Shown here piece after piece: positions 3,040 through 17,872 of a stretch of DNA of 64,000 nt (position 1 is the first letter of the stretch; each line of letters begins with the position of its first letter). The notes below the pieces were generated by a model. That model ran no database searches. It saw only the letters and a list, made by a program, of their open reading frames with translations, and was not told where the DNA came from. Source of the stretch: Thermus parvatiensis (GTDB lineage Bacteria > Deinococcota > Deinococci > Deinococcales > Thermaceae); the NCBI RefSeq assembly GCF_001535545.1, contig NZ_CP014141.1:1754001-1818000 (forward strand). The letters run 5' to 3'. The position numbers were made by a program, and so were the translations under genes.

Positions 3040-4262
3040 ACTTGAACCTCCCCCCGGACATGCCGGAGGACATCCGCCGGCAGATAGAAGACCTCGCCCA
3101 AAAGAACCCCGGCATGGCCCAGGGGCTCCTGCGCCTCTGGGAGGCGAAGCGGAAGCGGGAGGCGGGCGCTTCTTGGAACGAGACCCCTGCTAAAACGCCC
3201 AAGGAGGCCCCCGAGGAGGAGCCCCCTTCCTCGGGGACCCCGGACCGGGCTGGCCTCGAGGCCGCCCCCCCTCAGCGCCCCACCCTGGCCAATACCGACT
3301 GGCGGGAGGTGCGCCGCTTTGAGTGGCAGGACATCCTGGCCAAGGCAGAGCGCACCATAGAGGCCCACGGCTACAAGGAGGTGCTGGGCCCCCTCTTCCC
3401 CCTGGTGCGCCTCCTGGTGGCCTACGCCATCTGGGAGGGGGCCCGCCTGGACCCCTCCCGGGAGGCCCACGTCTTCCTCCCCCAGTGGGAGGTGGCCCAG
3501 GCCCTGGAGGTCTCCGAGCGCACGGTGGAGCGGTGGCTCCACGACCCCCGCTATGAGAAGTACCGCCGCTACGCCCGCCACTGGATCGCCTGGGAGACCT
3601 GGATGACCTCAGGGCGGGCCCTGGAGCGGGAGGGGGCGGTGAAGGGGGGCACCGTGTGGCGGGTCAGGGTGCGCCCCGTCTACCGGGCCATCCGGGTCCT
3701 GGCCCCCTACCTCCGCCTCACCTGGCGGGACCTGGAGGAGGACCGGCGGGAGGGCCGGACGGCCCGGGTGTTGAGTGACCCCGACTCAATGTCGGGATAC
3801 AAAGAGGGTCTTCTACTAGGTAGACCCTTAACCCTAAGGATCGTGGTAGGGGAGCCGTTAGCCACCTGGGAAAGCAAAAAAACCCCGTTACTATTAGATC
3901 CCGACACTCGCCGGAACTTCCGGGAACTTCTCCGGCTTTCCAGCGTCCCCGGGGGCCGGAACGGCCGCCGGAACTGGGCCCAGCAGGCGGCGTCCGCCAT
4001 CGCCGCCGCCCTGGGAGACCAGAAGAGCGTGCGCTTCTGGCTCCGGGTGGTCTGGGCCGCCCTCAAGCAGGCCCTTTTTGGGGGAGGGGAAGGAGCCATG
4101 AGGGTCCTGGCCCGGGTGGTGGGCCTCGCGGCCGAAGCCCGGGCTGATGGCTTCGCCCGGAGCCCTGGGGCCTACGCCCAGGCCCTCCTGCGGCGGGAGG
4201 GGTACTGGGACCTGGTGGCCCCCTTCCAGGCCTTCAGAGCGGGGGTGCCCTATGCGGGTTGA
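3036..4262 (+). CDS. Putative replication initiation protein, 408 aa
   Basis: Largest early gene. N-terminus acidic and Pro-rich (residues 1-85). Residues about 145-175 contain a winged-helix/HTH signature (LPQWEVAQALEVSERTVERW), followed by a basic stretch (HDPRYEKYRRYARHW). The C-terminal 130 residues are basic and helical. Size, position after the early regulators and the AT-rich repeat-bearing island embedded at 3776-3930 fit a phage or plasmid initiator that binds an origin within its own gene, as lambda O does. No polymerase, helicase or HUH motif is visible. Function is inferred. Confidence 0.55.
   Translation: MNLNLPPDMPEDIRRQIEDLAQKNPGMAQGLLRLWEAKRKREAGASWNETPAKTPKEAPEEEPPSSGTPDRAGLEAAPPQRPTLANTDWREVRRFEWQDILAKAERTIEAHGYKEVLGPLFPLVRLLVAYAIWEGARLDPSREAHVFLPQWEVAQALEVSERTVERWLHDPRYEKYRRYARHWIAWETWMTSGRALEREGAVKGGTVWRVRVRPVYRAIRVLAPYLRLTWRDLEEDRREGRTARVLSDPDSMSGYKEGLLLGRPLTLRIVVGEPLATWESKKTPLLLDPDTRRNFRELLRLSSVPGGRNGRRNWAQQAASAIAAALGDQKSVRFWLRVVWAALKQALFGGGEGAMRVLARVVGLAAEARADGFARSPGAYAQALLRREGYWDLVAPFQAFRAGVPYAG
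3776..3930. other. AT-rich island with repeats inside the replication gene: candidate origin
   Basis: Local composition drops sharply below the roughly 70% GC around it. It contains a hairpin CCCGAC/GTCGGG (3780-3785 and 3791-3796, 5-base loop), a third CCCGAC at 3900-3905, an imperfect palindrome GGGTCT...AGACCC (3806-3827), an A7 run, and two GGAACTTC repeats (3913-3920 and 3923-3930). Rare codons (CTA, TTA, ATA-like usage) are used here only. This is the layout of an initiator-bound origin; experimental support is absent. Confidence 0.4.
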
Positions 4263-4611
4263 TCGGGTGCGGCTAGAGGCGGTGACGGATATCCTCCAGC
4301 ACCGGCTTCAGGAGGCCTTGGAGCAGCCTGGCCGGCTGGTGGCCTTTGCCCTTCGCACCTCCCCGAGCGATGGGGTGCAGGTTTTCTTGAAGCTCCGGCC
4401 CGATGGCCGGCTGGTCCTCGCCATCCGCCGGCCGGGAGGGAAGGAGGACCCTCGGGAGATCCAGGCCCTGGCCCGGCACATGGGGCTGGAGATACGGGAG
4501 GGGCCCATGGAGATGGCGGGCAGGATCCCGAGGCCGAAGGTCGGGCCCAGGAAATACCTGGTGGCCTTCTGTGAGCCAGTCAAGGGAGGCCATAATGCAA
4601 ATCCTGCTTGA
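4252..4611 (+). CDS. Hypothetical early protein, 119 aa
   Basis: ATG at 4252 overlaps the end of the replication gene by 11 bases. Basic-acidic alternating protein; middle section VQVFLKLRPDGRLVLAIRRP suggests a small beta-sheet domain and the C-terminus is basic. No family recognised. Its tail overlaps the start of the DndC-like gene by 17 bases, indicating coupled translation. Confidence 0.55.
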   Translation: MRVDRVRLEAVTDILQHRLQEALEQPGRLVAFALRTSPSDGVQVFLKLRPDGRLVLAIRRPGGKEDPREIQALARHMGLEIREGPMEMAGRIPRPKVGPRKYLVAFCEPVKGGHNANPA

Positions 4612-5602
4612 AGACATGATTTCCTGGCATGCCGATTTCGCTCCGGACCTCAAGGAGGCCGTGGCCTTGGCCGAGCGCGCCCTCGAGGCCGCCCTCGCCC
4701 AGGGGGCCGAGACCTTCGTCCTCACCTACTCGGGGGGCAAGGACTCCACCGCCACCACCGTCCTCACCCTGGAGTGGTGGAAGCGCAAGGGGAAGCCCGT
4801 GGAGATCCACGTGGTCTACGCCGACACGGGGCTGGAGATCCCCACCCTCCACGCCCAGGCCCTGGCCTTCCTGGAGGCGGTGAAGAGGCTCCACCCCGGG
4901 GTCCACGTTCACACCGCCCGCCCCCGCCCCGAGGAGAGCTTCTGGGTCCAAATCATCGGCAAGGGCTACCCCCCGCCCCACAACCGCTTCCGCTGGTGCA
5001 CCCGCAGGTTGAAGATCGCCCCCATGGACCGCCTGGTCCAGAGCCTTCCCGGGAAGAAGGCCATCCTCACGGGGGTGCGCTTCGGGGAGTCGGACGCCCG
5101 GGACCAGAGGCTCGTCCTCTCTTGCTCCCGGGGCGGGGAGTGCGGCCAGGGGGTGCTCTTCCAGGAGGCCAAGCGTCTGAACGCCCTCTACGTGGCCCCC
5201 ATCGCCTTCTGGCGGGAGTGCTTCGTGTGGGACTACCTGAACTTCGTGGCCCCCTCCCTGGGCTACCCCACGGAGGGCCTGGAGGCGGTCTACGGGGGCC
5301 GGGACACCCGCTTCGGGTGCTGGACCTGCACCGTGGTGCGGCGGGACAAGGCCATGGCGCGGGCCCTGGAGAACGGCCACGCCCACCTCCTCCCCCTCTA
5401 CGAGTTCCGGGAGTGGCTTTGGGCGTGGACCCGGGATCCTGCGACCCGGGTAAAGCGGAAGGACGGCAAGCCCGGGGGGCTCACCCTCGAGGCCAGGCGG
5501 GAGGTGTACCGGAGGTTGAAGGAGGTGGAGGCGAAGCTCGGGATGGAGCTCCTCACTTCCGAGGAGGAGGCTTTTTTGAGAGATAGGATGGAGGAATCAT
5601 GA
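4595..5602 (+). CDS. DndC-like sulfurtransferase (PAPS reductase family), 335 aa, orphan
   Basis: Start ATG 4595 is preceded by GGGAGG. N-terminal adenine nucleotide alpha-hydrolase fold with PP-loop TYSGGKDSTATT (residues about 47-58). Cysteine-rich signatures of DndC follow: FRWCTRRLKIAPMD, SCSRGGECGQG, and RFGCWTCTVVRRDKAMA, which would hold a 4Fe-4S cluster. DndC activates and transfers sulfur during DNA phosphorothioation, normally together with DndA, DndB, DndD and DndE; none of these is present here, so it would need host cysteine desulfurase and unknown partners, or act in another PAPS-reductase-like reaction. The protein is shorter than typical DndC (about 500 aa). Cotranscribed with replication genes. 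Confidence 0.8.
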   Translation: MQILLEDMISWHADFAPDLKEAVALAERALEAALAQGAETFVLTYSGGKDSTATTVLTLEWWKRKGKPVEIHVVYADTGLEIPTLHAQALAFLEAVKRLHPGVHVHTARPRPEESFWVQIIGKGYPPPHNRFRWCTRRLKIAPMDRLVQSLPGKKAILTGVRFGESDARDQRLVLSCSRGGECGQGVLFQEAKRLNALYVAPIAFWRECFVWDYLNFVAPSLGYPTEGLEAVYGGRDTRFGCWTCTVVRRDKAMARALENGHAHLLPLYEFREWLWAWTRDPATRVKRKDGKPGGLTLEARREVYRRLKEVEAKLGMELLTSEEEAFLRDRMEES

Positions 5603-5676
5603 CACCTAGCCAGAAAGCCTTTGGGTTGGCCCTACTTGTGGGCATCGTGGCCTTGACACCTAGAGGCGTGCTATGA
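5599..5676 (+). CDS. Very small membrane peptide, 25 aa
   Basis: ATG overlaps the DndC-like stop (ATGA) and its own stop overlaps the next ATG (ATGATG). One hydrophobic stretch (FGLALLVGIVAL). The double 4-base overlap is the main reason to accept it as a gene; it may simply couple translation of its neighbours. Confidence 0.35.
   Translation: MTPSQKAFGLALLVGIVALTPRGVL
5600..5663. repeat. Direct repeat TGACACCTAG, also found inverted at the right end of the prophage
   Basis: TGACACCTAG occurs at 5600-5609 and 5654-5663. The inverse core TAGGTGTC occurs twice, 11 bases apart, at 17727-17734 and 17738-17745 next to the tRNA-Ile. Four copies of an 8-bp word with two clustered beside the attachment region hint at a shared protein-binding site (integrase arm sites or a regulator). 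Confidence 0.35.
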
Positions 5677-5966
5677 TGCGGGGGATGGAACTCAAAAAAG
5701 GGCGCCCCGGTAGGCGTATCCTGGCCCTCGCCACCCGCAAGCGGAACCCGGTGCCGATTGAGTCTCAGCCGCTGGAAAACCTCCTCTACGCCCTCCTGGG
5801 AAGCCCAGTGGCCGCCCGGTCCATCGCCCAGGCCCTGGACGGGGATATCCGCAACTTGCACGGCTGGGACATCCAGGACCTCATGGCCCTGCCCGGGGTG
5901 GGGGAGGGGGTGGCGGGCCGCCTCGCGGCCCTAGTGGAACTTGTGCGCAGGCTTGTGAAGCGCTAA
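5673..5966 (+). CDS. Helix-hairpin-helix protein, 97 aa
   Basis: Basic N-terminus (KKGRPGRRILALATRKRN) and a C-terminal tandem HhH motif (MALPGVGEGVAGRLAALVEL) like that in the N-terminal domain of RadC-type proteins or RuvA. It would bind DNA non-specifically through the backbone. Last gene of the early operon, followed by a terminator. Role in replication or recombination is inferred. Confidence 0.65.
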   Translation: MMRGMELKKGRPGRRILALATRKRNPVPIESQPLENLLYALLGSPVAARSIAQALDGDIRNLHGWDIQDLMALPGVGEGVAGRLAALVELVRRLVKR

Positions 5967-6000
5967 GGTTCACTTCGCCCGGGCGGTTCGCCCTGGCGTT

Positions 6001-6036
6001 CCGGCCCGCCGCTTCGCCATGGCGGGCCGGGCTTTT
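6001..6036 (+). terminator. Intrinsic terminator of the early operon
   Basis: Perfect 10-bp stem CCGGCCCGCC (6001-6010) / GGCGGGCCGG (6021-6030) with a 10-base loop, then GCTTTTG. Separates early genes from the virion block. Confidence 0.7.
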
Positions 6037-6067
6037 GTTGCCCGCCTCTGGACGGCAGGCTGAGGGC

Positions 6068-6628
6068 ATGGCCTACCAGCGGGTGCCCGTGGACCCCAAC
6101 GCTCCTCTTCGGCCGGGAAAGACCTACGAGATCGTGGCGGCCCACAAAGGGGGGGACGTTTCCCGGGTCACGCGGGCCAATTTGGAGCGGGCCCTTCAGG
6201 CTAAATACGGCCCCGGGGTCAGGGTGCTGGACTGGGGGAAGCGGGGAAATGACCTGGTGATCCGGTTGAAGGTGGAGACCACGTCTTCCTCCGCCGGTAC
6301 CTCTGACCCCTGGGCTGTGCCTCCCGCCTACGGGGGGGCGGGATGTGGGTCCACCAAGTGCCCCCAGCCCATGGGCTACCTGGGCGGGGGGGACATCTAC
6401 CCGGCCTTCCTGCCCCTGGCCCTCAGCGCCGCCGCGGTCATCGCCGTCCTCTATCTGGTTTGGCGGATCGTGGCCGAGCTGAAGGAGGCGGTGGAGCTGG
6501 TGCCGGCCCCGGCCCGGGCGGCCGCCGTGGCGGGCGCGGGGGTGGGCGTGGGGGCCCTCGGGCTGGCCGCCCTGGGTGTGGTGGCCCTGGCCCTTGTTGG
6601 TGGAAGGAGAAGGAGGGCGTATGCCTAA
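6068..6628 (+). CDS. Membrane protein, 186 aa, first gene of the virion/lysis block
   Basis: Soluble N-terminal domain (residues 1-85, mixed charge) followed by a Gly/Pro/Cys linker (about 86-115) and two hydrophobic segments (about 118-138 and 157-180), ending in RRRRAYA. Likely an internal-membrane or membrane-associated virion protein. No SD as strong as its neighbours. Family not recognised. Confidence 0.6.
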   Translation: MAYQRVPVDPNAPLRPGKTYEIVAAHKGGDVSRVTRANLERALQAKYGPGVRVLDWGKRGNDLVIRLKVETTSSSAGTSDPWAVPPAYGGAGCGSTKCPQPMGYLGGGDIYPAFLPLALSAAAVIAVLYLVWRIVAELKEAVELVPAPARAAAVAGAGVGVGALGLAALGVVALALVGGRRRRAYA

Positions 6629-6671
6629 GAAGACCAGGAAGACCAAGAGGAAGAAGCGCTCTCGGAGGTAG
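6621..6671 (+). CDS. Tiny, extremely basic peptide, 16 aa
   Basis: MPKKTRKTKRKKRSRR: 11 of 16 residues are Lys or Arg. It has a near-ideal ribosome binding site (AAGGAGGG, 9 bases before the ATG) and overlaps the upstream gene by 8 bases. Such a peptide could neutralise packaged DNA or bind RNA. Too short for homology-based calling; the strong SD and neighbours in a tight operon support it. Confidence 0.5.
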   Translation: MPKKTRKTKRKKRSRR

Positions 6672-6674
6672 ACC

Positions 6675-7076
6675 ATGCTCCGGCTCAAGCTCCCGGAGGA
6701 GGTCGTAGGCGAGAAGGCCGTCCTGGAGGAGGAGGGGGAGGCCAGAGAGGTGAAGGCCGTCCCCCTCCAGGGGCCTTTAGACCCCATTCTGGAGGCCGCC
6801 GTGGAGTCCCAGCCCCGGGTGGCCGGGCCTAAAGAGGCCTCGCAGGAGGAGCCCGCCAGGCCCGAACCCGAGCCCGAGGAGCCCCCCAGGGGTGCCCCTA
6901 AGAAGAGCCCCTTCGGCTTTCTCGCGGCCCTGGGGGCCGGGGCCCTGGTCCTCCTGGGCGTGGCCCTGGCCGGAAAAGGAGGTGCGAGTGCAAACGGTAG
7001 TGGAGGAACCCCAGGCGCAAACCCCACCCCCACCGCCCCCGGTGGAGGAAGCGGAAGCGGCCCCGTCATCTGGTAG
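6675..7076 (+). CDS. Single-pass membrane protein with acidic N-terminus, 133 aa
   Basis: Acidic, Glu/Pro-rich N-terminal 75 residues, then a transmembrane helix (FGFLAALGAGALVLLGVALA, about 79-98), then a Gly/Pro/Ser/Thr-rich tail. Its last 89 bases overlap the next gene in another frame, so the low-complexity tail may be constrained by the neighbour's coding. Likely virion membrane protein. Confidence 0.55.
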   Translation: MLRLKLPEEVVGEKAVLEEEGEAREVKAVPLQGPLDPILEAAVESQPRVAGPKEASQEEPARPEPEPEEPPRGAPKKSPFGFLAALGAGALVLLGVALAGKGGASANGSGGTPGANPTPTAPGGGSGSGPVIW

Positions 7077-7509
7077 CTGGGAGCCCCTAGGCGAGGAGGC
7101 CCCGGAAGACTTCTCTGAGCTTCCGCCGGCGGAGCCTCCCGTGATCCCCTTCACCGGGGAGGAGATCGCGGGCGGGGCGGCGTTTTTGCTCATGCTCGGG
7201 GTGCGGGTCCAGTCGGAGGAGGAAAAGGCCGCGTTTCTGCGGGCTTGGCAGGGGGCCCTCTTCGGCCTCATGCCCCCGGCCCAGGTGCTGGACGTCCTGA
7301 AGGTCGGGGAGGCCCTGGCCCAGTACGGCATCGGGAAGAACCGCCTTCCGGGCATGGGGAGCGTGGAGAACCTTCCCCCGTGGCTGCGGATCCTCCTGGG
7401 CGGCGGAGTGCTGGCTATAGCGGCGTACGGAGGTGTGCGTGCGGTTATGGATGTACGGGCTTCTAGGACTGCTGGGGGTGCTCCTGATGGTGCGCCGCCA
7501 AGCGCCTAG
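6988..7509 (+). CDS. Membrane protein with Pro-rich N-terminus, 173 aa
   Basis: Start GTG 6988 chosen because AAGGAGG ends 5 bases upstream; that start lies within the preceding gene. Pro/Glu-rich N-terminus (EEPQAQTPPPPPPVEEAEAA), a central helical domain (FTGEEIAGGAAFLLMLGVRV through LMPPAQVLDVLKVGEALAQY) and a transmembrane segment near residues 133-152 (LRILLGGGVLAIAAYGGVRA). Its 3' end overlaps the amidase gene by about 70 bases. Confidence 0.55.
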   Translation: MQTVVEEPQAQTPPPPPPVEEAEAAPSSGSWEPLGEEAPEDFSELPPAEPPVIPFTGEEIAGGAAFLLMLGVRVQSEEEKAAFLRAWQGALFGLMPPAQVLDVLKVGEALAQYGIGKNRLPGMGSVENLPPWLRILLGGGVLAIAAYGGVRAVMDVRASRTAGGAPDGAPPSA

Positions 7510-8020
7510 TGCCTACATCGTCCTGGACCCCGGCCATGGCGGGCAGGATCCCGGGGCTGTGGCCCCGGACGGCACCCGGGAGGCCGATTTGAACCTGGCC
7601 CAGGCTCTCACCCTGAAGGAGTACCTGGTGGCCCTGGGCTACCGGGTGGGGTTCACCAGGACCTCGGACGTCTATGTCCCCCTTTCTGAGCGTATTGCCA
7701 TGGCCCGGAGGATGGGGGCGAGGCTCTTCATATCGGTCCACCATGACACTCCCACGGCCTCGAGGCCCGGGGTCTACTACTCCCCTCATCCGGGATCCGA
7801 GGAGTTGGCCCGCACCGTGGCCGCCGCCTTGGGGGAGGGGGCATGGGTTAGGCCCTCTTCGGCCTCGAGGTTCGGACGCCTCTACATAGACGACTTCCCC
7901 GGCCCGGCCATCCTGGTGGAGTTCGGCCCCACGCGGCCCATCAGCAGGGCAGAGAGGATCGCCCGGGCTCAGGCCGTAGCCTCTCCGATAGCTGAGTTTG
8001 CGAGGAGGTGGACGGCGTGA
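7439..8020 (+). CDS. N-acetylmuramoyl-L-alanine amidase (Amidase_3), phage endolysin
   Basis: 193 aa from GTG 7439 (GGAGGT 5 bases upstream; ATG 7451 also possible). N-terminal transmembrane or signal-anchor helix (MYGLLGLLGVLLMV) then a complete Amidase_3 domain: DPGHGGQDPGA (Zn His), GTREADLNLA (Zn Glu), FISVHHDTPT (Zn His) and AILVEFGPT (catalytic Glu). Cleaves the lactyl-amide bond of peptidoglycan. The N-terminal anchor suggests export without a holin or incorporation in the viral membrane. Placed directly before virion genes. Confidence 0.88.
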   Translation: MRLWMYGLLGLLGVLLMVRRQAPSAYIVLDPGHGGQDPGAVAPDGTREADLNLAQALTLKEYLVALGYRVGFTRTSDVYVPLSERIAMARRMGARLFISVHHDTPTASRPGVYYSPHPGSEELARTVAAALGEGAWVRPSSASRFGRLYIDDFPGPAILVEFGPTRPISRAERIARAQAVASPIAEFARRWTA

Positions 8021-8160
8021 AAGAGCGGTGGATCCAAAACGCCATCACGCGCCCCGGACGCCTCCGGGCCTACGTGCGGCGGGTGTACGGAGAGGAGGGC
8101 TTTACGAAACGGGGGACGATCCGCGTGGAGGTCCTGCGGGAGTTCCGAAAGGAGGAGTGA
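8017..8160 (+). CDS. Small basic protein, 47 aa
   Basis: GTG overlaps the amidase stop by 4 bases. Strongly basic (13 Lys/Arg), predicted alpha/beta: VKERWIQNAITRPGRLRAYV then RGTIRVEVLREF. Could bind nucleic acid. Family unknown; kept because of perfect coupling to both neighbours. Confidence 0.5.
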   Translation: MKERWIQNAITRPGRLRAYVRRVYGEEGFTKRGTIRVEVLREFRKEE

Positions 8161-8348
8161 TGGAGTTCGCCAAGGAGAACGCTTTTCCCCTCGCGGTCCT
8201 GGTGGGAGGCCTCTACCTGGGCCTCGGACGGGTGAAAAACCTCCGGGAGGGCAAGTGCTGCCCCAAGTGCGAGACCGCCCAGGCCGTGGTGGCCTTCGCC
8301 TTGGCCGCCTGGGCCGGGTGGGAGCTGTGGCAGGCCTACCAGGGCTAG
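8160..8348 (+). CDS. Small membrane protein with CxxC, 62 aa
   Basis: Start ATG 8160 with AAAGGAGGAG upstream. Two hydrophobic segments (residues about 8-23 and 39-58) separated by REGKCCPKCETAQA, a small zinc- or thiol-type motif. Sits immediately before the packaging ATPase (adjacent codons, no gap). Confidence 0.55.
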   Translation: MEFAKENAFPLAVLVGGLYLGLGRVKNLREGKCCPKCETAQAVVAFALAAWAGWELWQAYQG

Positions 8349-9029
8349 ATGGGCGGCAGGCAGACCTTCCGCATCCTCATCGTGGGCAAGTCCGGGTCAG
8401 GGAAGTCCACCCTGGCCCGGCAGATCGTGCGGGCTATGGAGGGCCGCTTCCGCCGCCTCGTCATCGTCAACCGCAAGACGGAGTTCGGTGATTTGGCAGA
8501 GGCCCGTTTCCGCGTGGGGGAGGACGGGGACCCCTGGGCTGTTTTGAAGCGCCACCGCAGGGTCCACTTCCACGTCACCGGCTACGACCCCCGCCCCTTT
8601 TTGGATGCCCTGGGCCAGGCCATCATGCGCCTCCAGGACACCCTTCTGCTGCTTGACGAGGCCCACCACTTTTTTCCCCGGGGGCAGGTGCCCAAGGGCC
8701 TCTTTGAGGTCCTGACCGGGGGAAGGGAGCACGGGCATTCGGCCATCTTCGTCACCCAGATGCTCCAGGCCGCCACCGGGGGCATAGACCCCGGGGTGCG
8801 CCGTCAGGCCTCCCACCTGGTGGCCTTCCGCCTCACGGAACCCCGGGAAGTCCAGGCCCTGGCGGACATGTTCCCCGAGCTGGGGGAGCGGGTCAGGCTC
8901 CTCAAGCGCCCCGATGACGGCCTGCCCCCGGAGTACGGGGTGAAGGACCTGGACCGGGACCGGGCGGGCCTGGTCCTCCGGGACCCGAGGGCCCCACAAA
9001 GGCGGGTTTTCGTGCCCCTGGACGGCTAA
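8349..9029 (+). CDS. FtsK/HerA-type genome packaging ATPase, 226 aa
   Basis: Walker A IVGKSGSGKSTLA (residues about 11-23), Walker B DTLLLLDEAHHFFPRG (about 95-110) and a following sensor (SAIFVTQMLQAATGG). Size and order fit the packaging ATPases of the PRD1-adenovirus lineage and of P23-77, which pump DNA into a preformed capsid. ATG follows the upstream TAG directly. A strong terminator/palindrome follows. Confidence 0.88.
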   Translation: MGGRQTFRILIVGKSGSGKSTLARQIVRAMEGRFRRLVIVNRKTEFGDLAEARFRVGEDGDPWAVLKRHRRVHFHVTGYDPRPFLDALGQAIMRLQDTLLLLDEAHHFFPRGQVPKGLFEVLTGGREHGHSAIFVTQMLQAATGGIDPGVRRQASHLVAFRLTEPREVQALADMFPELGERVRLLKRPDDGLPPEYGVKDLDRDRAGLVLRDPRAPQRRVFVPLDG

Positions 9030-9030
9030 G

Positions 9031-9112
9031 GGGCACTTCGCCCGGGCGAAGTGCCCGGGCGAAGCGGCCCAAAACTCCCAAGCGCCCCGGCGTATCTCCG
9101 GGGCGCTTCGCT
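9031..9112. terminator. Long perfect palindrome followed by an intrinsic terminator
   Basis: 9031-9056 is a perfect 26-bp palindrome centred on CCCGGG; 15 bp of it (9034-9048) recur at 5971-5985 before the first terminator. Then AAGCGCCCCGG (9080-9090) / CCGGGGCGCTT (9098-9108) forms an 11-bp stem with 7-base loop followed by CGCTCTTTATT. Ends the ATPase operon before the capsid genes. No clear -35/-10 pair is visible in the following 50 bases. Confidence 0.7.
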
Positions 9113-9163
9113 CTTTATTCCCCCATCGCCCCCCGCCTACCGTGGGCGGCAGAAGGAGGGCGA

Positions 9164-9580
9164 ATGGCGGATACGGCGGCAATCGCGGCGCAGGACATGC
9201 GCAAGCTTGCCTCCACCAGCAACCCCCTGGAGGTGGTGCAGAACCCCATCGTGGTGAGCGTGAGCGTGGGGGTGCTAGGGGCTTATCTGGCGCGGAAGGC
9301 GCTCTATACGTCCAGGCGCGACCTCTTTGGCTGGGCGGCGAAGGGCGAGGACGGGCGTGTCCACTACTACGCGGTGGGTCCGGACGGAAAGCCCGACACC
9401 AGCAAGGAGGTCCCGAACGCCCGGACCAACAGGGTGTTGCTCAACCTGGGCGGGGTCATCGTGGGCTCACTGCTCATCAACAACAAGCTGACCGAGGACC
9501 CCATGGTGGACTACATCGGCTTAGGCGTGGCGGCCGGTTCCTTCGCGAACCTGGTCATGGCGATTTTGGACATTGACTAA
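9164..9580 (+). CDS. Membrane-associated virion protein, 138 aa
   Basis: AAGGAGGGCGA precedes the ATG. Two amphipathic/hydrophobic regions (IVVSVSVGVLGAYLARKALY at about 29-48; LNLGGVIVGSLLINN and IGLGVAAGSFANLVMAIL near the end). Placed immediately before the capsid genes, matching the position of a minor structural protein in P23-77. Exact identity not recognised. Confidence 0.6.
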   Translation: MADTAAIAAQDMRKLASTSNPLEVVQNPIVVSVSVGVLGAYLARKALYTSRRDLFGWAAKGEDGRVHYYAVGPDGKPDTSKEVPNARTNRVLLNLGGVIVGSLLINNKLTEDPMVDYIGLGVAAGSFANLVMAILDID

Positions 9581-9591
9581 GGAGGTAAAGG

Positions 9592-10107
9592 ATGCAGGAG
9601 GCTTTTGAGCGGATCAAGCGGCTTCGGCCCGGGGCCCGCCCCATCACCATCCTGAGGAGCGGCCCCGAGTTCAAGGCGTACGGCGGCAGGCAGAAGGTGA
9701 AGGTGGGCGAGTTCGTGGTGCCCTCGGGGGCCACTTGGGTTTTTCCAAATCCCGTCCCCGTGGTCCTCAAGCTCTACGATTCCGGCGGCAACCAGCTGCC
9801 CCACACCACGGACGTCTACTTCGCCCGGCGCACCAAGGGCTTTGACTTCCCCGAGTTTTTGGTCAAGGCCCAGTACGCTTCGTACTACGACCTCTCCGAG
9901 GCCCAGCAGCGGGACGCCAAGTTCTACCAGAACATCCTGCAGACCGCGAGCCCACTTTACGCCCCTACCCCGCCCCAGGGCATCGTGCTGCGGGAGGGGG
10001 ACACCCTGGAGATCTACGTGGAGACCGACCCCGGCATCACCGTGAACCTCAACGACTCCCGCACCCGCATTGAGCTGCCCGTGGGCGTGGACAACTCCAA
10101 CGTGTAG
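9592..10107 (+). CDS. Small major capsid protein (P23-77 VP16-like), 171 aa
   Basis: Strong SD (AAGGAGGTAAAGG). All-beta composition with [20 protein letters not shown] and [10 protein letters not shown] near the N-terminus and [20 protein letters not shown] near the end, consistent with a single upright beta-barrel. Length is close to P23-77 VP16 (about 173 aa) and it directly precedes a 291-aa partner, as VP16 precedes VP17. VP16 and VP17 together build the capsomers of these viruses. Confidence 0.8.
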
Positions 10108-10115
10108 GAGGGACT

Positions 10116-10991
10116 ATGGCGCTCTTGGATAGCCTTCGCAACGCGGTTCGGAGGGGCCTCGGGGTGTTCCAGGACGCCCCTTCCGCCCCCTCCCCCGCGC
10201 CTCAGCCGCAGCCCCAGCCGGCGCGGCCTGCCCCGGCGGCGGTCCAGGCCTCGGGGTGGCAGTTCGCCTGGATTGACAACGAGGACTTTGACGCCACCGG
10301 CCTGGCCTACCGCCCCAATGAGTATTTCGCCCTGGCCCAGATGCGCACCCCGGACACGGCCCACTTCCGCATCCTGGCGGGAGAGCGGCGCCTGCGCATC
10401 TACCTGAAGGGCCTGGCCGCCTTCGCGGGCCAGAATCTGGCCACGGCCCAGGCCCGCACCGTCACCCTGCCCTACCTCATCCCCTCCTTGCAGGGGGCCC
10501 CTACCCTGCCCTCCACCTACCACCCAGACGTGGCCGTCTGGGCCAAGGTGGGCGGGGTGTGGCAGCGGTGCCAGATCAATGACGTCAACTACGCGAGCCA
10601 GCAAGTGACCTTCTTTGAGCCCGCCGGCGTGACCGGCGCCCAGGACATTGAGGTCTACTACACCCACGCTGACGGGCAGTTCCGCCTCCGGGTGGCCCGG
10701 GACGCGGGCGGGGTGGACGACAGCGTGGCCACCGTCTTCAACCAGTCCTTCTCCACCATGCACAGCGTGGACCAGAACAACCTGGAGACCATGCTGGCCT
10801 GGCCCCAGCAGGTGGAGCTGGTGCCGGGCACCCGCCTTCTCCTGGAGGTCTTCACCACCCAGGTGCCCATGGTCTGGAACGAGCGGGCCGGCCACTACAT
10901 CCAGATCGCCGCCATGGGCCGGCGGGTGGAGGTGCTGGACAAGAGCCGCCTCTTGCGCCTGGCTGAGCTGGAGAACCGGGGCGGCCTCTGA
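10116..10991 (+). CDS. Large major capsid protein (P23-77 VP17-like), 291 aa
   Basis: GGAGGG SD before ATG. N-terminal amphipathic helix (MALLDSLRNAVRRGLG) that could touch the membrane, a Pro/Ala/Gln linker (residues about 22-45), then an all-beta body. The 291-residue length equals that of P23-77 VP17, which has two stacked beta-barrels of which one is the capsid core and the other a turret. Order and spacing after the VP16-like gene strengthen the call. Confidence 0.82.
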   Translation: MALLDSLRNAVRRGLGVFQDAPSAPSPAPQPQPQPARPAPAAVQASGWQFAWIDNEDFDATGLAYRPNEYFALAQMRTPDTAHFRILAGERRLRIYLKGLAAFAGQNLATAQARTVTLPYLIPSLQGAPTLPSTYHPDVAVWAKVGGVWQRCQINDVNYASQQVTFFEPAGVTGAQDIEVYYTHADGQFRLRVARDAGGVDDSVATVFNQSFSTMHSVDQNNLETMLAWPQQVELVPGTRLLLEVFTTQVPMVWNERAGHYIQIAAMGRRVEVLDKSRLLRLAELENRGGL

Positions 10992-11002
10992 GGGGGTGAG
11001 CC

Positions 11003-11398
11003 ATGCCGTTCGGCCTCTCCGAATCCTATTCCCCCAGCCTTTCGGGGTACACGCCCCCCTACACTCTCTTGGACTCCGGGGCTTCGGGGTCCTGGGGGTT
11101 CAGCCTCTCCAACTCCTACACCCTTCCCCTTACGGGGGGCGTTTCCGGGAGCGCTGGAGACACCCCCCTCTGGGCCCAGATCTTGGGCGGGCTGGGCCAG
11201 ATTGGGAGCCTCATTGACCCCTACATCCTGACCGAGCAGGAACGCCTGCAGTACCAGCTGCAGCTCGCCCAGGCCCAGGCGGAAGCGGCCAAAGCACAAG
11301 CCGCGAGCGTCCAAGCGCAGCCCGTGGTGCCCGTGTGGGTCTGGGTCCTGGTGGGCCTCGGGGTGGTCCTCCTGGTGGTCCTTGCATTGAAGGAGTGA
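11003..11398 (+). CDS. Virion membrane protein, 131 aa
   Basis: Ser/Gly/Tyr-rich N-terminal half (residues 1-50), then a helical segment with a Gln/Ala coiled coil (ERLQYQLQLAQAQAEAAKAQ) and a C-terminal transmembrane helix (VPVWVWVLVGLGVVLLVVLA). The motif DPYILTEQERLQYQ matches DDFIFTDEERMALE in the next protein, so the two are paralogues. Confidence 0.6.
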   Translation: MPFGLSESYSPSLSGYTPPYTLLDSGASGSWGFSLSNSYTLPLTGGVSGSAGDTPLWAQILGGLGQIGSLIDPYILTEQERLQYQLQLAQAQAEAAKAQAASVQAQPVVPVWVWVLVGLGVVLLVVLALKE

Positions 11399-11400
11399 GC

Positions 11401-11655
11401 ATGGACGTTTTTGGCGGGCTCATCGGTGGGGTCACCAACCTGCTGGACGACTTCATCTTCACGGATGAGGAGCGCATGGCCTTGGAGGCCCAAAAGGCGG
11501 CCGCCCAAGCCCAGATGGAAGCGGCCCGCTTGGCCCAAGAGCGGGCCATGTTGGAGGCCGCCGCCCGAGCCCGCCAGGCCCAGGCCCTCACCGTGGCCGC
11601 CGTCACCGTAGGAGCGGCGCTGGTGATGGCCGTGCTGGTTTGGAGGTGGACATGA
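11401..11655 (+). CDS. Virion membrane protein, 84 aa, paralogue of its upstream neighbour
   Basis: Start ATG 11401 follows GAAGGAGTGAGC. N-terminal LLDDFIFTDEERMALEAQKA followed by an Ala/Gln/Glu coiled coil and a C-terminal transmembrane helix (LTVAAVTVGAALVMAVLVW). Same architecture as the 131-aa protein minus its N-terminal Ser/Gly domain, which suggests tandem duplication. Confidence 0.6.
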   Translation: MDVFGGLIGGVTNLLDDFIFTDEERMALEAQKAAAQAQMEAARLAQERAMLEAAARARQAQALTVAAVTVGAALVMAVLVWRWT

Positions 11656-12302
11656 GCGAGAACACCCTTTTGGGGGTTGCGGCGATAGGAGCAGTGGTCG
11701 TGGGAGGACTCATCGCCTGGAGGATGACCGATCCCAACAGGCAGCGTGTGCCGTACGCCCCGGCCCAGCCTGTCGTGCCCCCCTCCTCTCAACCGGTTCT
11801 GCCTCCTTCCTCTCAACCCATTTCTACCCCGACCCCTCCGCAGACTTTCCCAACGTTGCCCAATCCCATTGCCACTCCCACCCCAACTCCTACCCCGACC
11901 CCCCAAACCCCCACCATCACCAAGGGGCAGCTTTGCGCGGACCTGAAAGCAAAGCTGCAAAAGCTCCAGTCTGCCGCGGACGATGTGAAGAAGAAGATGA
12001 ACGATCTGGTGGCCAAGGGGTCCAGCGCGGATACGAACTGCTGGAGCTACGCCAAGCGGGAGGCTTGCTTCTGGGAAATCTGCTCCCCTGCCCTGGGCGG
12101 GAACTACAACGCCTGCATGGACTACGTGAAGGGGCAGGGGCCCCGGCCGGGAAATCTCTTCAACTACGACGACTCCCGGGCGGTGGACCAGGCGGCCCAG
12201 CAGTACGCGGCCCTGAAAGACGAGCTGGAGACCTACCAGGCTCAGATTGAGGGGGTCAAGAAGCAGCTACAGCAGCTGGCCACGGAGGGGGTGGTCTGCT
12301 AG
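11652..12302 (+). CDS. Membrane-anchored protein with Pro/Thr stalk and coiled-coil Cys domain, 216 aa
   Basis: N-terminal transmembrane helix (LLGVAAIGAVVVGGLIAW), then a 60-residue Pro/Thr/Ser stalk (residues about 35-92; nearly pure Pro-Thr alternation at the end), then a helical domain with coiled-coil heptads (LCADLKAKLQKLQSAADDVK) and six cysteines (NCWSYAKREACFWEIC, NACMDY, final VVC). The layout of anchor, extended stalk and disulfide-stabilised head suits a surface-exposed virion component. Function inferred. Confidence 0.6.
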   Translation: MSENTLLGVAAIGAVVVGGLIAWRMTDPNRQRVPYAPAQPVVPPSSQPVLPPSSQPISTPTPPQTFPTLPNPIATPTPTPTPTPQTPTITKGQLCADLKAKLQKLQSAADDVKKKMNDLVAKGSSADTNCWSYAKREACFWEICSPALGGNYNACMDYVKGQGPRPGNLFNYDDSRAVDQAAQQYAALKDELETYQAQIEGVKKQLQQLATEGVVC

Positions 12303-12526
12303 TGGAGTGGAAGGACGTCATGGACATGGGCTTGGGGGCAGTGGCCTTTGCGGCGTTCCTGAAGCTCGTGTTCCGGGATGTGGCCGAGGTGCGGGAGCGT
12401 TTGGCCCGGATAGAGGAGAACGGCCGCCGGCAGGCCTATTACCTCTCCCGGGTGGCGAACGCCATGGAGGCCCAGGCTTACCGGCAGGGCCTTCGGGTGA
12501 GGGAGGTGAAAGAGGATGGAAAGTAG
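12302..12526 (+). CDS. Small membrane protein with coiled coil, 74 aa
   Basis: GTG overlapping the upstream TAG (in-frame ATG 12320 is an alternative start). Short hydrophobic helix (MGLGAVAFAAFLKLVF) followed by DVAEVRERLARIEENGRRQA, a coiled coil like those of XhlA/holin-associated phage proteins. It could be part of the lysis apparatus or a virion membrane protein. Confidence 0.5.
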   Translation: MEWKDVMDMGLGAVAFAAFLKLVFRDVAEVRERLARIEENGRRQAYYLSRVANAMEAQAYRQGLRVREVKEDGK

Positions 12527-12818
12527 AGCGCTTTTGCTGGCCCTTTTGGGCTTTGGCGTGGCCGGCTATCTGGCGTATCAGCTGGCCAAGGGGCAGGGGC
12601 AGGCTACCGCCGGGCAGACGCCGAAGCAGTCGGAAGCTCCCCCGGCCCAGACCGAAACCCCTCCCGTGGTGGTGGGTGACTTCGGCGGCCAGCTGCCCTT
12701 TGGGCTGGGCGGTTTGGGGCAGGACGCCCTTTGCCGGGTAGTCCCGAGCCTTTGCGGCTGGTACAACCCGGCCTATGTGGGCAGGCCCGCCCCTCTGCCC
12801 GTGGTGCCCCTCTGGTGA
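12516..12818 (+). CDS. Membrane-anchored small protein, 100 aa
   Basis: N-terminal transmembrane helix (LLLALLGFGVAGYLAYQLA), a Gln/Pro/Thr-rich linker, and a Gly/Pro-rich C-terminal part with two cysteines (LCRVVPSLCGWYNPAY). Overlaps the upstream gene by 11 bases. One of the series of anchor-plus-linker proteins of this virion block. Confidence 0.5.
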   Translation: MESRALLLALLGFGVAGYLAYQLAKGQGQATAGQTPKQSEAPPAQTETPPVVVGDFGGQLPFGLGGLGQDALCRVVPSLCGWYNPAYVGRPAPLPVVPLW

Positions 12819-12826
12819 GGTGACGG

Positions 12827-13060
12827 ATGCAGGGCGCTTGGATCGTGGCGGTGGCGGTGGCGGCCGGGGCGTACGCGGGGTACGCCCTGGCCCGGCGGGG
12901 AGGGGGGCGGGCCCAGAGCGGGCAGCCTTCCCAGGGTTCCCCCCCTTCCGATCGGATCTGCCCGCAAGTGCTGGTCACGTGCCAGGACGGCTCTATTGCC
13001 CCCACCCCCTGCGACTGTGAAGGTAGGGGTGGGGTGAAGCGCGTGGGGGTGATGGTGTGA
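12827..13060 (+). CDS. Membrane-anchored small protein with Cys motif, 77 aa
   Basis: GAGGTGACGG precedes the ATG. N-terminal helix (WIVAVAVAAGAYAGYALA), Gly/Gln/Ser linker and a Cys-rich tail (ICPQVLVTCQDGSIAPTPCDC). Same plan as its neighbours. Function unknown. Confidence 0.5.
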   Translation: MQGAWIVAVAVAAGAYAGYALARRGGGRAQSGQPSQGSPPSDRICPQVLVTCQDGSIAPTPCDCEGRGGVKRVGVMV

Positions 13061-13485
13061 GCGTGCAGGACTTCCTACCTCAGGGGCAGGTATGGCTCGT
13101 CTGGCTCGTCCAAGCTCTCCTCGCGGCCGGGCTCATCGCCCTTCTCTCGGGGCTCATCGTGCGGGTGGTTTCCGCCATCCCCGTGGTGGGGCCCGTCCTC
13201 GCGGCGGCGGTGCGGATGCTCTTTGCTAACTACGAGAAATGGCTTTCCGAACGTGTGCCGAAGCTGGCCGAGCAGGCGGTCCTGGCCACGGAGGAGCGCT
13301 GGCGGAAGGTGGGCCCCCAGTACGATCCTTCCGCCCGGGCAGAAGCCAAACTCCGGGAGGCCATGGAGGCCCTGCAGCAGATGGCCCCCGGCCTGCCTCG
13401 GGACATCGCCCAGCGGCAGATTGAGGCCGCCCTGGCCCGCATCCGGGCTATGGGCATGGAGCAAAAGGCAGGAGGTGGAAAGTGA
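13057..13485 (+). CDS. Membrane protein with helical tail, 142 aa
   Basis: GTG start overlapping the previous stop. Long hydrophobic region (VWLVWLVQALLAAGLIALLS and AIPVVGPVLAAAVRMLF, residues about 12-53) followed by a charged helical domain (EEWRKVG to IAQRQIEAALARIRAMG). Probable structural membrane protein. Confidence 0.55.
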   Translation: MSVQDFLPQGQVWLVWLVQALLAAGLIALLSGLIVRVVSAIPVVGPVLAAAVRMLFANYEKWLSERVPKLAEQAVLATEERWRKVGPQYDPSARAEAKLREAMEALQQMAPGLPRDIAQRQIEAALARIRAMGMEQKAGGGK

Positions 13486-13607
13486 ACCTGAACTTCGGTG
13501 ACGGCCTTCGCTTCGGCGCTGGCTTTGTCGTGGGGGGAACGCTGATCTGGGTGGGCCTCCTCCTGGTCCTAGCCCTGGTGGGGGCCCTGGTGGGGAAGAA
13601 GGAGTAG
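13482..13607 (+). CDS. Very small membrane protein, 41 aa
   Basis: GTG overlaps the previous TGA; AGGAGG lies 8 bases upstream. Gly/Phe N-terminus and one transmembrane helix (LIWVGLLLVLALVGALVG) ending KKE. Not detectable by length-based gene finders. Confidence 0.5.
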   Translation: MNLNFGDGLRFGAGFVVGGTLIWVGLLLVLALVGALVGKKE

Positions 13608-13608
13608 C

Positions 13609-13908
13609 ATGCAGGCTCCGTCCTTCTGGCAGTCCTACAAGCAGGGCGTGGGCATCGCCCTCGGGGTGGCCACGGTGTACCTGGTCCTGGTGGCCCTCCT
13701 GGGGGCCTTTGTGGTGCGGCCCGCCCTTGAAAACCTGGGCAAGGGCGGCCAGGCTGGGGGCAAGGAGGTGCAGCGTGCTCAACCTCTTGGGCATAAAGCA
13801 AGAAGATTTGGCGGCTTTGCCTGCCCGCCTGCAGGAGGCCATGGGCGAGATGCGGGCAGATATGGCGTGCTTGAAGGACCAGCTGGCCGCCATCCAACGC
13901 ATCCTTGA
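13609..13908 (+). CDS. Single-pass membrane protein, 99 aa, 3' part overlapping the next gene
   Basis: ATG 13609 after AAGGAGTAGC. One transmembrane helix (VGIALGVATVYLVLVALLGAFVV). The last 44 codons overlap the following gene in another frame and read as a Gly/Pro/Arg-rich tail with little sign of its own selection, so the true protein may be shorter if a base is missing near 13760-13775. Confidence 0.45.
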   Translation: MQAPSFWQSYKQGVGIALGVATVYLVLVALLGAFVVRPALENLGKGGQAGGKEVQRAQPLGHKARRFGGFACPPAGGHGRDAGRYGVLEGPAGRHPTHP

Positions 13909-14227
13909 ATACGAGTTTGGCCGCCCAAGGCGGGACGTGCAGGGCCATGACCCGGCCCGGCTTCCGCTCATCGCTCAGATCGCCCCCGAAATAGGAAGGG
14001 TGGCGGTGGTGGACGTGGCGGGGCTCTTGGGAAAGCCCGCCACCCGGGGGCACGTGGTCAACATCGGGGACGCCAAAGCCGCCCTGTGGTTCCGCTACGG
14101 CTCCGGGCGGGTGGGGCCCTATGTGCTCATGCCCGCCGCCGCCCTAGACCTCACCTTCCTAGTGGAGGCTTTGGAGGTTTCGGACGTTGGTGAAGGGCCC
14201 GTGGCCGTGCAGATCCTGATGCAGTAG
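13775..14227 (+). CDS. Hypothetical virion protein, 150 aa
   Basis: GTG 13775 with AAGGAGG 6 bases upstream. Helical N-terminus (LNLLGIKQEDLAALPARLQE, about residues 1-45) leading to a beta-rich C-terminal domain (residues about 65-150; HVVNIGDAKAALWFRYGSGR). The two-domain plan resembles capsid-associated or spike-base proteins; not recognised. Confidence 0.55.
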   Translation: MLNLLGIKQEDLAALPARLQEAMGEMRADMACLKDQLAAIQRILEYEFGRPRRDVQGHDPARLPLIAQIAPEIGRVAVVDVAGLLGKPATRGHVVNIGDAKAALWFRYGSGRVGPYVLMPAAALDLTFLVEALEVSDVGEGPVAVQILMQ

Positions 14228-14236
14228 GAGGAGGTA

Positions 14237-14305
14237 ATGAGCAAGTACGAGCCCTACCGGCAAAGGTACTTGGACACCCTACGGCGCGAGCGCCTATGCC
14301 GCTGA
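14237..14305 (+). CDS. Very small charged peptide, 22 aa
   Basis: Good SD (AGGAGGTA) and ATG; sequence rich in Tyr and Arg (MSKYEPYRQRYLDTLRRERL). Its stop codon lies inside the start of the following gene, giving coupled translation. May be a real peptide or only a translational coupler. Confidence 0.35.
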   Translation: MSKYEPYRQRYLDTLRRERLCR

Positions 14306-15396
14306 AGACCCAGGTTTACCGCAGAGGAAACACCTACGCGCCAGAGCTGCGCCTGGCCCCCGGCCCTCGGAGCATGGGGGACACCGGGGACGGCTCCTAT
14401 GCCACCCTCTACGGCTACGCGTGGGCGGGCCTCCTGGACCGCGTGGAGCGGCGCTTCCGCCTCTTCCAGGCCCAGGTGCCCGGGGAGGGCCCCTGGCCCT
14501 TGCACGACTCACGGGGGGCAGAAGTGGCGGTGTGGGTGGAGGTGGAGGTGCCTCCCCTCCCTCACCCGGTGGAGGAGATCCGCCACCTGGCCTTGGCCTT
14601 TGACCAGGCGGCCCGGCACGTGGTGGCGTACGAGCGGGAGGGGGAGGTCTGGGTGCGGCAGTGGGACCCCCTTAGTCAGTCCTTCGTTCAGCGGGGCCCT
14701 TTCCCGGGCGTGGACCCCGTCCTCATCCAGGACGCCACCGTTGGCTACTACCCTCCGGACTCGGACGTGCTCCTCTTCCACCTCTCCCCCGACCGCACGA
14801 GCCTAGTCATGCGGGTCCAGCGGGAGCTGTACGCCACGCCCCACACCATCCAGACCTTTGACCAACCTGTGGTGCTGGACCAGGCCGTAGCCTTGCCCTA
14901 CCAGATAGAGCTTTTGGGGAGCCTGGTCAGCGCCCTAGACGCCACCGGCTACGTCCTAAGGTCCGAGATATATCCCGTGCGGGTTGAGGACGCTCTGGGC
15001 CTGGCCAGCCTCTCCGCCCCCACCACGGGCGATTACATCCCCATCGTGGTCATCGTGGACCTCGGGATGAAGGGCTTAGGCCAAGCTACCCTTACCGCTC
15101 CCGCTACTGGGGACTACATCCCCATCGTGGTCATCGTGGACCTCGGGACGGAGGGCATTGGCTCGGCCACCCTATCGGCACCCGCCACGGGGAGCTACGT
15201 TCCTATCGCGGTCGTTCAGAACCTTGGGACGGAGAACCTTGGCGCCGCTACCCTCTCCGCCCCGACCACGGGAACCTACGCCCTGGTAGTGGTGGTCGTG
15301 GACTTGAGAGGGGCAAACTACTTCCCCTCTGGCTACGAAGCCCTGGGTTCGGCTACCCTCTCTGCCCCAACCACAGGGAGCTACGAACTCGCCTAA
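14296..15396 (+). CDS. Virion protein with C-terminal tandem repeats, candidate spike, 366 aa
   Basis: N-terminal 230 residues form a mixed, mostly beta domain; the C-terminal 133 residues are five copies of a repeat with the consensus LGxATLSAPTTGxYxPIVVV plus DLGxEG. Beta-strand-rich repeats at the end of a virus protein suggest an extended surface structure such as a vertex spike. ATG overlaps the 22-aa peptide. No homology recognised. Confidence 0.6.
   Translation: MPLKTQVYRRGNTYAPELRLAPGPRSMGDTGDGSYATLYGYAWAGLLDRVERRFRLFQAQVPGEGPWPLHDSRGAEVAVWVEVEVPPLPHPVEEIRHLALAFDQAARHVVAYEREGEVWVRQWDPLSQSFVQRGPFPGVDPVLIQDATVGYYPPDSDVLLFHLSPDRTSLVMRVQRELYATPHTIQTFDQPVVLDQAVALPYQIELLGSLVSALDATGYVLRSEIYPVRVEDALGLASLSAPTTGDYIPIVVIVDLGMKGLGQATLTAPATGDYIPIVVIVDLGTEGIGSATLSAPATGSYVPIAVVQNLGTENLGAATLSAPTTGTYALVVVVVDLRGANYFPSGYEALGSATLSAPTTGSYELA
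14995..15393 (+). repeat. In-frame coding repeats, 81 bp units
   Basis: Units at 14995-15075, 15076-15156, 15157-15237 (81 bp each), 15238-15342 (105 bp with an insertion) and 15343-15393 (partial). Units 1 and 2 are closest to each other, including the identical peptide GDYIPIVVIVDLG, which indicates a recent duplication. Confidence 0.8.
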
Positions 15397-15405
15397 GGAG
15401 GAAGC

Positions 15406-16512
15406 ATGGGAAAGATTGTCGTGCCCGGCAAGGAAATCCGGATACCGAGGGTTGTGGTGCGGCCCCTTCTGCCGCCGCCACCGACATTCAGCGCCCGCCT
15501 GCAACCGCAACACCTGCATTGGCAGGTGGGGCGCTATAAGGAGCGCCTGACCTCCGGCCCGGGCGGGCTCGGAAGGGGGAAGATTTGGGTCGTTGAGAAG
15601 GAGGCCGAACAGCACAACCTCATCTTGACCCAGACCTATGACGCGCTAATAGGGAGCAGAGGATTTATCTCGCTCGCCGACTACGCCGTAGTAGGCACTG
15701 GCTCAACGCCACCGAATGCGACCCAGACGGGGTTAGTAGCCGAAGTAGCGAGGACGAACGCCGGAGTAAGCGGCGAACCCGACACGATTGCGCGCCAGTC
15801 CACCTCCGGCCCCGGGGTTGGAACATTCATCATCACAAAAAGGCGCGAGTTCACCGAAGCCCAGGTGGGCGGCAGAAACCTCACCGAGTGGGGGTTCAGT
15901 CCCTCCGGTAGCGCAGGGGGCAACCTGATGACCAGGGAGCTGTTCCGGGACGGGCTGGGTAACCCCGTGGTCATCTCGCTAGCTTCGGACCAGAGGCTAC
16001 GGCTCATTTACGCCTATCAGGTCAGCTACTCCCCAAACGCCGGGGCGCCGCAGGACGCAAGCATAAACATTGCCAACCTTGGTACCTTCGCCGGGAAGGT
16101 GTTCGCCACGCGCTACTGGAGCGGCTACGATAGCGGAATGGGCGACCTCTATCTGCTGTCGTGGTGGGCTATGGCGTACGCGGAAGACGTCTACAACTCC
16201 TTGTATTTCTACCCCCTAGACGCCTATAAGGCGCCGAACTTAGACTCTGAGTTTGGAAACTACTCCGGCACCACCGGGTACCGAATAACTTCCGGGATGT
16301 TCACAGCCATCACCAGAGGTCGGAAGATAAACGCCATCACCATTCCCGCCACCGATTACAACCGCGACATCTATGGGTTTGCGATAATCAGGTACACTGG
16401 CACGTACCACGCCGGCGGCTTCGCCCTCGCGTTCAACAGCGGCGTAAAGTTCACCAAAAGCAACCTCTACAAGCTCGTCGTTGGAGAATGGACTTTGACC
16501 TGGGGGCCGTGA
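15406..16512 (+). CDS. Fibre-like virion protein with atypical codon use, 368 aa
   Basis: AAGGAGG SD before ATG 15406. The first 60 residues (Pro/Arg-rich, QPQHLHWQVGRYKERLTSGP) look like an attachment domain; residues 75-368 are Gly/Thr/Tyr/Ser/Asn-rich and beta-like, as in phage receptor-binding fibres. From about 15630 onward the gene uses many A/T-ending codons (CTA, ATA, GTA, AGG, AAC-rich stretches), unlike the GC-ending codons of every neighbour, indicating a recent origin elsewhere. Receptor binding is inferred. Confidence 0.6.
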   Translation: MGKIVVPGKEIRIPRVVVRPLLPPPPTFSARLQPQHLHWQVGRYKERLTSGPGGLGRGKIWVVEKEAEQHNLILTQTYDALIGSRGFISLADYAVVGTGSTPPNATQTGLVAEVARTNAGVSGEPDTIARQSTSGPGVGTFIITKRREFTEAQVGGRNLTEWGFSPSGSAGGNLMTRELFRDGLGNPVVISLASDQRLRLIYAYQVSYSPNAGAPQDASINIANLGTFAGKVFATRYWSGYDSGMGDLYLLSWWAMAYAEDVYNSLYFYPLDAYKAPNLDSEFGNYSGTTGYRITSGMFTAITRGRKINAITIPATDYNRDIYGFAIIRYTGTYHAGGFALAFNSGVKFTKSNLYKLVVGEWTLTWGP

Positions 16513-16778
16513 TGATGCCGGGCGGATGGCGAGAGCGCACGCTGGTGATCCCTGACCCCACCCCTACCCCGCCCATGGAGGTGGGCGTCTTTCCCCTGGC
16601 CCGGCGTGATTTTCGCCACGTGCGCGGGGGTGAGGTAAAGGTCGCGGTGGCCCGGTATGGGGACATCCACGCCTTCGCCTGGTACGTAGGGGGTGGGTGG
16701 TTGACCCTAAACCGGGGACGCCGGCTCAGGACGAGGAGTCACCATGGGGCGGAGGACGGGCGCAGGCGGCAGGGGTAG
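16512..16778 (+). CDS. Hypothetical protein, 88 aa
   Basis: The ATG at 16512 overlaps the previous stop (TGATG); an in-frame ATG at 16488 is an alternative. Compact, probably beta domain (EVGVFPLARRDFRHVRGGEV to DIHAFAWYVGGGWLTL), then a basic tail that overlaps the next gene by 35 bases. Possibly a chaperone or cap for the fibre upstream. Confidence 0.45.
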   Translation: MMPGGWRERTLVIPDPTPTPPMEVGVFPLARRDFRHVRGGEVKVAVARYGDIHAFAWYVGGGWLTLNRGRRLRTRSHHGAEDGRRRQG

Positions 16779-17460: not shown

Positions 17461-17729
17461 GGCAGCTTCCTTGGGGCATCCTCCTCATGTTCGCCACGCT
17501 GGGCCTGGCCTTCGCCCTGGCCGGCTTGTCCTGGTGGCTCCTCTTTTTGGTGGGCCTTGCGGCCTGGCTGGCCGTGGTGGAGTACCTGGCCTTGCGGCGC
17601 ACGGGGCTCACCATCTCGGGGCAGTTTTTGGCGTGGGCGCGGCGGCACCCCTGGGCGGCCGGGGCCATGGCGGCCCTCCTTGGGGCGGCGGTGGGGTATC
17701 TCATCTACCACCTGGTGACCGGCTATTAG
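17457..17729 (+). CDS. Small three-helix membrane protein, possible holin, 90 aa
   Basis: GTG overlapping the transglycosylase stop by 4 bases. Three hydrophobic helices (residues about 5-23, 25-42, 63-85) with a basic loop (RRTGLTISGQFLAWARRHP). Last phage gene, next to a muralytic enzyme; a holin role is plausible but undemonstrated. Its stop is in the TAGGTGTC repeat region. Confidence 0.5.
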   Translation: MRQLPWGILLMFATLGLAFALAGLSWWLLFLVGLAAWLAVVEYLALRRTGLTISGQFLAWARRHPWAAGAMAALLGAAVGYLIYHLVTGY

Positions 17730-17746
17730 GTGTCGTGTAGGTGTCA
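17727..17746. repeat. Two TAGGTGTC repeats, 11 bp apart, at the prophage right end
   Basis: 17727-17734 and 17738-17745. Spacing of one helical turn and location between the last phage gene and the tRNA suggest integrase/excisionase arm-type binding sites; the same word occurs inverted at 5602-5609 and 5656-5663. Confidence 0.35.
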
Positions 17747-17752
17747 AAGGTC

Positions 17753-17782: not shown

Positions 17783-17795
17783 TCCCTTGCTTATC

Positions 17796-17872
<77 letters not shown>

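Follow-up and report, generated by a model that had tools for sequence, protein, structure and literature searches.

Within the window, by which we mean the whole stretch of 64,000 nucleotides of the Thermus parvatiensis chromosome that was analysed, two genes on the forward strand encode proteins of 171 aa (9592–10107) and 291 aa (10116–10991), exactly as an earlier note on this DNA had described them. The 171-aa protein matches P23-77 VP16 (PDB 3zmo) end to end (E 4.5e-94) and the VP16-like Pfam family PF22024 with 254.7 bits against a cut-off of 27, and the 291-aa protein matches P23-77 VP17 (PDB 3zmn) end to end (E 2.1e-140) and PF22210 with 152.1 bits, again against a cut-off of 27. Identity to the crystallised P23-77 proteins is 81 % for VP16 and 70 % for VP17; to the corresponding IN93 proteins, ORF13 and ORF14, it is 95 % and 94 %. 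As judged from sequence, chance is excluded as the source of these matches, and the two proteins are assigned as the paired small (VP16) and large (VP17) major capsid proteins.

The capsid genes had been said to follow a HerA-like ATPase gene in the order known from P23-77. A gene for a packaging-type P-loop ATPase, its Walker A motif reading GKSGSGKS and its Walker B motif LLLLDEAHH, does lie upstream on the same strand (8349–9029; 96 % identical to IN93 ORF11 and 79 % to P23-77 ORF13), and the order stands, but the succession is not immediate: a homologue of the virion structural protein VP15 (9164–9580, forward strand; 94 % to IN93 ORF12, 83 % to P23-77 VP15) is encoded between ATPase and VP16, an arrangement also seen in P23-77. 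The 26 bp at 9031–9056, between the ATPase and VP15 genes, are perfectly self-complementary and may represent a terminator or a hairpin with a regulatory role. The statement that such capsid proteins are usually annotated as hypothetical holds for PHROGs, where both families are entered as of unknown function, and for IN93, whose ORF13 and ORF14 were deposited under 'hypothetical protein', but not for Pfam, which names both families, nor for the record of phage Tsatsa, in which the pair appears as MCP1/MCP2.

Gene content and relationship to known viruses

Homologues of further P23-77 structural proteins are encoded on the forward strand, namely VP6 (6035–6628; 92 % identical to IN93 ORF5, 64 % to P23-77 VP6), VP19 (11335–11655; 98 % to IN93 ORF16, 75 % to P23-77 VP19), VP20 (11640–12302; 95 % to IN93 ORF17, 68 % to P23-77 VP20), VP22 (12516–12818; 94 % to IN93 ORF19, 51 % to P23-77 VP22) and VP23 (12827–13060; 94 % to IN93 ORF20, 54 % to P23-77 VP23). 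Downstream on the same strand, a homologue of P23-77 ORF28 (14296–15396; 73 % identical to it and 63 % to IN93 ORF22) carries a repeated LSAPTTG-type motif at its C terminus and is possibly a vertex or spike protein. The next gene (15406–16512, forward strand) encodes a virion structural protein homologous to P23-77 ORF29 (45 %; 41 % to Tsatsa 28), so strongly divergent that its match to IN93 ORF23 is limited to 115 residues; it matches PHROG virion structural and tail fiber families, and its position and divergence make it a candidate receptor-binding protein.

Two lytic enzymes are encoded on the forward strand. The first is AmiP, a 177-aa Amidase_3 endolysin (7487–8020; 82 % identical to P23-77 ORF10) whose phmmer match spans all 177 residues of PDB 7b3n (384.6 bits), and the second is an SLT lytic transglycosylase (16744–17460; PF01464, 91 % to IN93 ORF26). 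The remaining forward-strand genes encode a RepA-like replication protein (3036–4262; 92 % to IN93 ORF1, 61 % to P23-77 ORF1), a PAPS-reductase/DndC-like protein (4592–5602; PF01507 and the DndC models of PADLOC, 87 % to Tsatsa 3) and an excisionase-like HTH_17 protein (1637–1840; PF12728, 60 % to IN93 ORF28). On the reverse strand lie a LexA/CI-like repressor gene with Pfam HTH_3 and peptidase S24 domains (859–1587; 86 % to IN93 ORF36) and a gene for an Mrr-type restriction endonuclease (PF04471, 98 % to IN93 ORF38), of which positions 1–862 fall within the window. The remainder of the latter gene continues to the left of the window, next to a tyrosine integrase gene (395 aa; genome 1752673–1753860; PF00589, 95 % to IN93 ORF39).

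In a megablast comparison of window positions 1–18000 with phage records, IN93 ranked first (92.2 % identity over 77 % of the query), followed by P23-77 and Tsatsa. Once the left-hand DNA was added, the match to IN93 (AB063393, Hukuchivirus IN93) was colinear between window positions −1390 and 17840, interrupted where a few genes have been replaced. The repressor/excisionase region and some early genes differ between the two; IN93 has no homologue of the PAPS/DndC-like gene or of the Amidase_3 endolysin, the latter occupying the place of IN93 ORF8, and the prophage in turn lacks IN93 ORF37 and has diverged proteins at the ORF22 and ORF23 positions. P23-77 (GQ403789) shares the structural gene order, with the capsid, ATPase and amidase identities given above. 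Tsatsa (PQ109078) is similar in MCP1 (76 %), MCP2 (67 %), integrase (79 %) and the PAPS gene, but a HEPN/WD40 module, not Mrr, lies between its repressor and integrase genes. By tblastn, neither the prophage nor IN93 yielded a homologue of VP11, a P23-77 minor capsid protein whose counterpart is present in Tsatsa; VP11 is either dispensable in part of the group or its role there is filled by an unrecognised protein.

The virus lineage had been named correctly in the earlier note, and corresponds to Matsushitaviridae, genus Hukuchivirus. The VP16/VP17 pair, the ATPase gene just upstream in conserved order, the homologues of VP6, VP15, VP19, VP20, VP22 and VP23, and a size of 19,186 bp within the group's range of about 17–20 kb (IN93 19,604 bp, P23-77 17,036 bp) were all found; the absent VP11 does not define the group, as IN93 lacks it too. 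A P23-77-type prophage carrying the VP16/VP17 pair, as had been proposed, is the reading on which the PDB and Pfam matches, the gene-by-gene comparison and the att borders agree.

Borders, integration site and state of the prophage

A perfect 45-bp direct repeat is present at both ends of the prophage, attL at genome 1752610–1752654 (window −1390 to −1346) and attR at window 17796–17840 (genome 1771796–1771840), the size of 19,186 bp comprising the interior and one att copy. attR is the 3' part of a tRNA-Ile gene (window 17796–17872), which stays whole there. In another genome of the same genus (G048) the joined prophage flanks align without interruption (548/550 bp, 94 %), and this genome contains the empty integration site. 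Both IN93 and Tsatsa have the identical 45-base sequence, with the late genes on one side of it and the integrase gene on the other, and an Ile-tRNA attachment site has been reported as common to IN93, Tsatsa and phiMa (PMC11437467). Two unrelated tailed phages, phiMa and Cumys, also match window positions 17737–17841, around the att core, at 83.5 %.

In P23-77, positions 15802–15846, between the transglycosylase gene and ORF32, agree with the tRNA-Ile att core at 44 of 45 bases. Unlike the prophage, P23-77 is listed as lytic, and neither an integrase nor a repressor was found in it; the copy of the att core suggests a relic attP and descent from a temperate ancestor.

The 2017 genome paper of T. 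parvatiensis RL reads the region as a 'probable integron' (PMC5529391), that is, an integron or super-integron with captured phage genes, and the attL, attR, integrase, flanking tRNA and many hypothetical ORFs described there would suit such an element. Yet the gene order is that of a single virus from end to end, the integrase is 95 % identical to that of IN93, a lysogenic phage which attaches in Ile-tRNA (PMC11437467), and the att core was seen in two copies only, both terminal, with no array of recombination sites. Given the colinearity with IN93 and the lack of a cassette array, we reject the integron reading, which we regard as scarcely credible.

The region might instead be a defective prophage remnant that has lost the ability to form virions. 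The homologue of IN93 ORF9 (near 8017–8160), a small early-late gene, has lost an internal segment in frame, VP11 is missing, and the repressor/excisionase region differs from that of IN93. Against this, homologues of nearly all P23-77 structural proteins (VP6, VP15, VP16, VP17, VP19, VP20, VP22 and VP23), as well as the ATPase, RepA, integrase, repressor, excisionase and lysis genes, transglycosylase included, are open and near full length, the att sites are perfect repeats, and IN93 is infectious although it too is without VP11. We consider a remnant unlikely. The region is almost certainly a temperate, tailless virus, intact in appearance, which belongs to the IN93/P23-77 group and is integrated in tRNA-Ile of the T. 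parvatiensis chromosome.

For this temperate virus we envisage the following course. Integration, shown by the att repeats, the tRNA gene and the empty site, came about through recombination by the tyrosine integrase between the 3' part of the tRNA-Ile gene and the 45-bp attP. By analogy with homologues, lysogeny would be held by the LexA/CI-like S24 repressor and, on induction, replication would presumably be started by RepA. VP16 and VP17 are predicted, from P23-77, to assemble into a pseudo-hexameric icosahedral shell that encloses an internal membrane; the P-loop ATPase would package the DNA, and AmiP and the transglycosylase may aid lysis.

Capsid folds and distribution of relatives

AlphaFold models of VP16 and VP17 were built from seven sequences. 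The VP16 model (pLDDT 71) has the barrel fold of the group: in a Foldseek search of the PDB its top match was P23-77 VP16 (E 8.4e-20), followed by capsid chains of the haloarchaeal viruses SH1, HCIV-1 and HHIV-2 (E 3.5e-5 to 2.9e-4, TM 0.50–0.60). The VP17 model is poor (pLDDT 47.7), and although 3zmn was still its top match (E 2.4e-19) the TM score was just 0.35–0.43, at 70 % sequence identity; the model is too poor to be used alone, and the probable fold of VP17 is taken from that identity to 3zmn. The earlier note had made single β-barrels in both proteins its test. A barrel was found in VP16, and the single-barrel expectation is unsuited to VP17, for which no lone simple barrel is anticipated because the large capsid proteins of the group stack two barrels, an architecture given as probable for VP4 of SH1 and HHIV-2 (PMC5332951). 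The suggested kinship with haloarchaeal viruses was borne out in that the VP16 fold search reaches SH1, HCIV-1 and HHIV-2, which differ in having archaeal hosts and only 12–15 % identity in structural alignments; the modelled structure, together with the literature (PMC5332951), supports this link.

VP17 relatives were found in 16 of the 50 genomes of the host family, and the VP16 family, divergent members in other families included, in 19 of the 111 genomes of the phylum. A scan of viral contigs with VP16 yielded 12 related IMG/VR contigs, one of which (L031) is essentially the same prophage (99.94 % over 16.9 kb). A scan of genome contigs with VP17 peptide patterns, which reach close relatives only and may miss near records, found no relatives. 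In four genomes of the same family (G012, G013, G016 and G018) there are weak VP17 relatives (28–30 % identity over residues about 85/120–290), and no VP16-family match was found in these genomes; these proteins may form a remote branch of the capsid lineage. Elsewhere in the same order, genomes of other families (G058, G063, G065, G066, G068, G070 and G096) contain divergent VP16-family matches, one of them below the family cut-off.

The DndC-like gene and the earlier record of the element

A second chromosomal copy of the PAPS-reductase/DndC-like gene, at genome 12514–13439, has 97 % DNA identity to the prophage gene over 926 bp. Downstream of that copy (gene at L055 8457–9491) come an unassigned gene and then a HerA-type helicase gene, and the similarity suggests a recent exchange between the prophage and a defence-like locus. 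That the gene is an exchange module between virus and host defence, making or countering a sulfur-based or other modification of viral DNA, is a conjecture to which we give quite low probability. P23-77 has a PAPS-reductase-type gene (1889–2656) at the same position, and neither blastp (1e-3) nor tblastn detected homology between the prophage gene and P23-77 ORF3; because the two same-position genes are not detectably alike, this position appears to have been occupied on two separate occasions. Comparison of the prophage with its own genome gave no perfect spacer-length match elsewhere, a search in which weak spacer matches could be missed.

Such prophages had been expected to escape prophage finders, which proved wrong for this one: PHAST/PHASTER called the region as phage with attL and attR (PMC5529391, PMC9929850), and IMG/VR holds it. 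According to a later report, a 23.28-kb prophage lies at 1751557–1774840, and its 534-bp amidase gene product AmiP has been characterized (PDB 7B3N), with published activity and the P23-77 amidase noted as a homologue (PMC9929850). The 2024 description of Tsatsa also surveyed Thermus for IN93-like proviruses, and that survey may include the T. parvatiensis strain (PMC11437467). In the parts of the literature covered, we found no statement of the T. parvatiensis region as an IN93/P23-77-type provirus with VP16/VP17. The prophage is a known element of a known kind, a close relative of IN93; what is new here are its exact borders, which give 19.2 kb in place of 23.3 kb, the capsid and family assignment, the absence of VP11 and the apparent relic attP in the integrase-less P23-77.

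The analysis confirms tRNA-Ile of Thermus chromosomes as a site where tailless, membrane-containing viruses of the IN93 type are resident as prophages. For this strain it corrects the record, the 'integron' being a Matsushitaviridae prophage with exact borders, and the crystallised AmiP can be placed as the endolysin of an IN93-like tailless virus.
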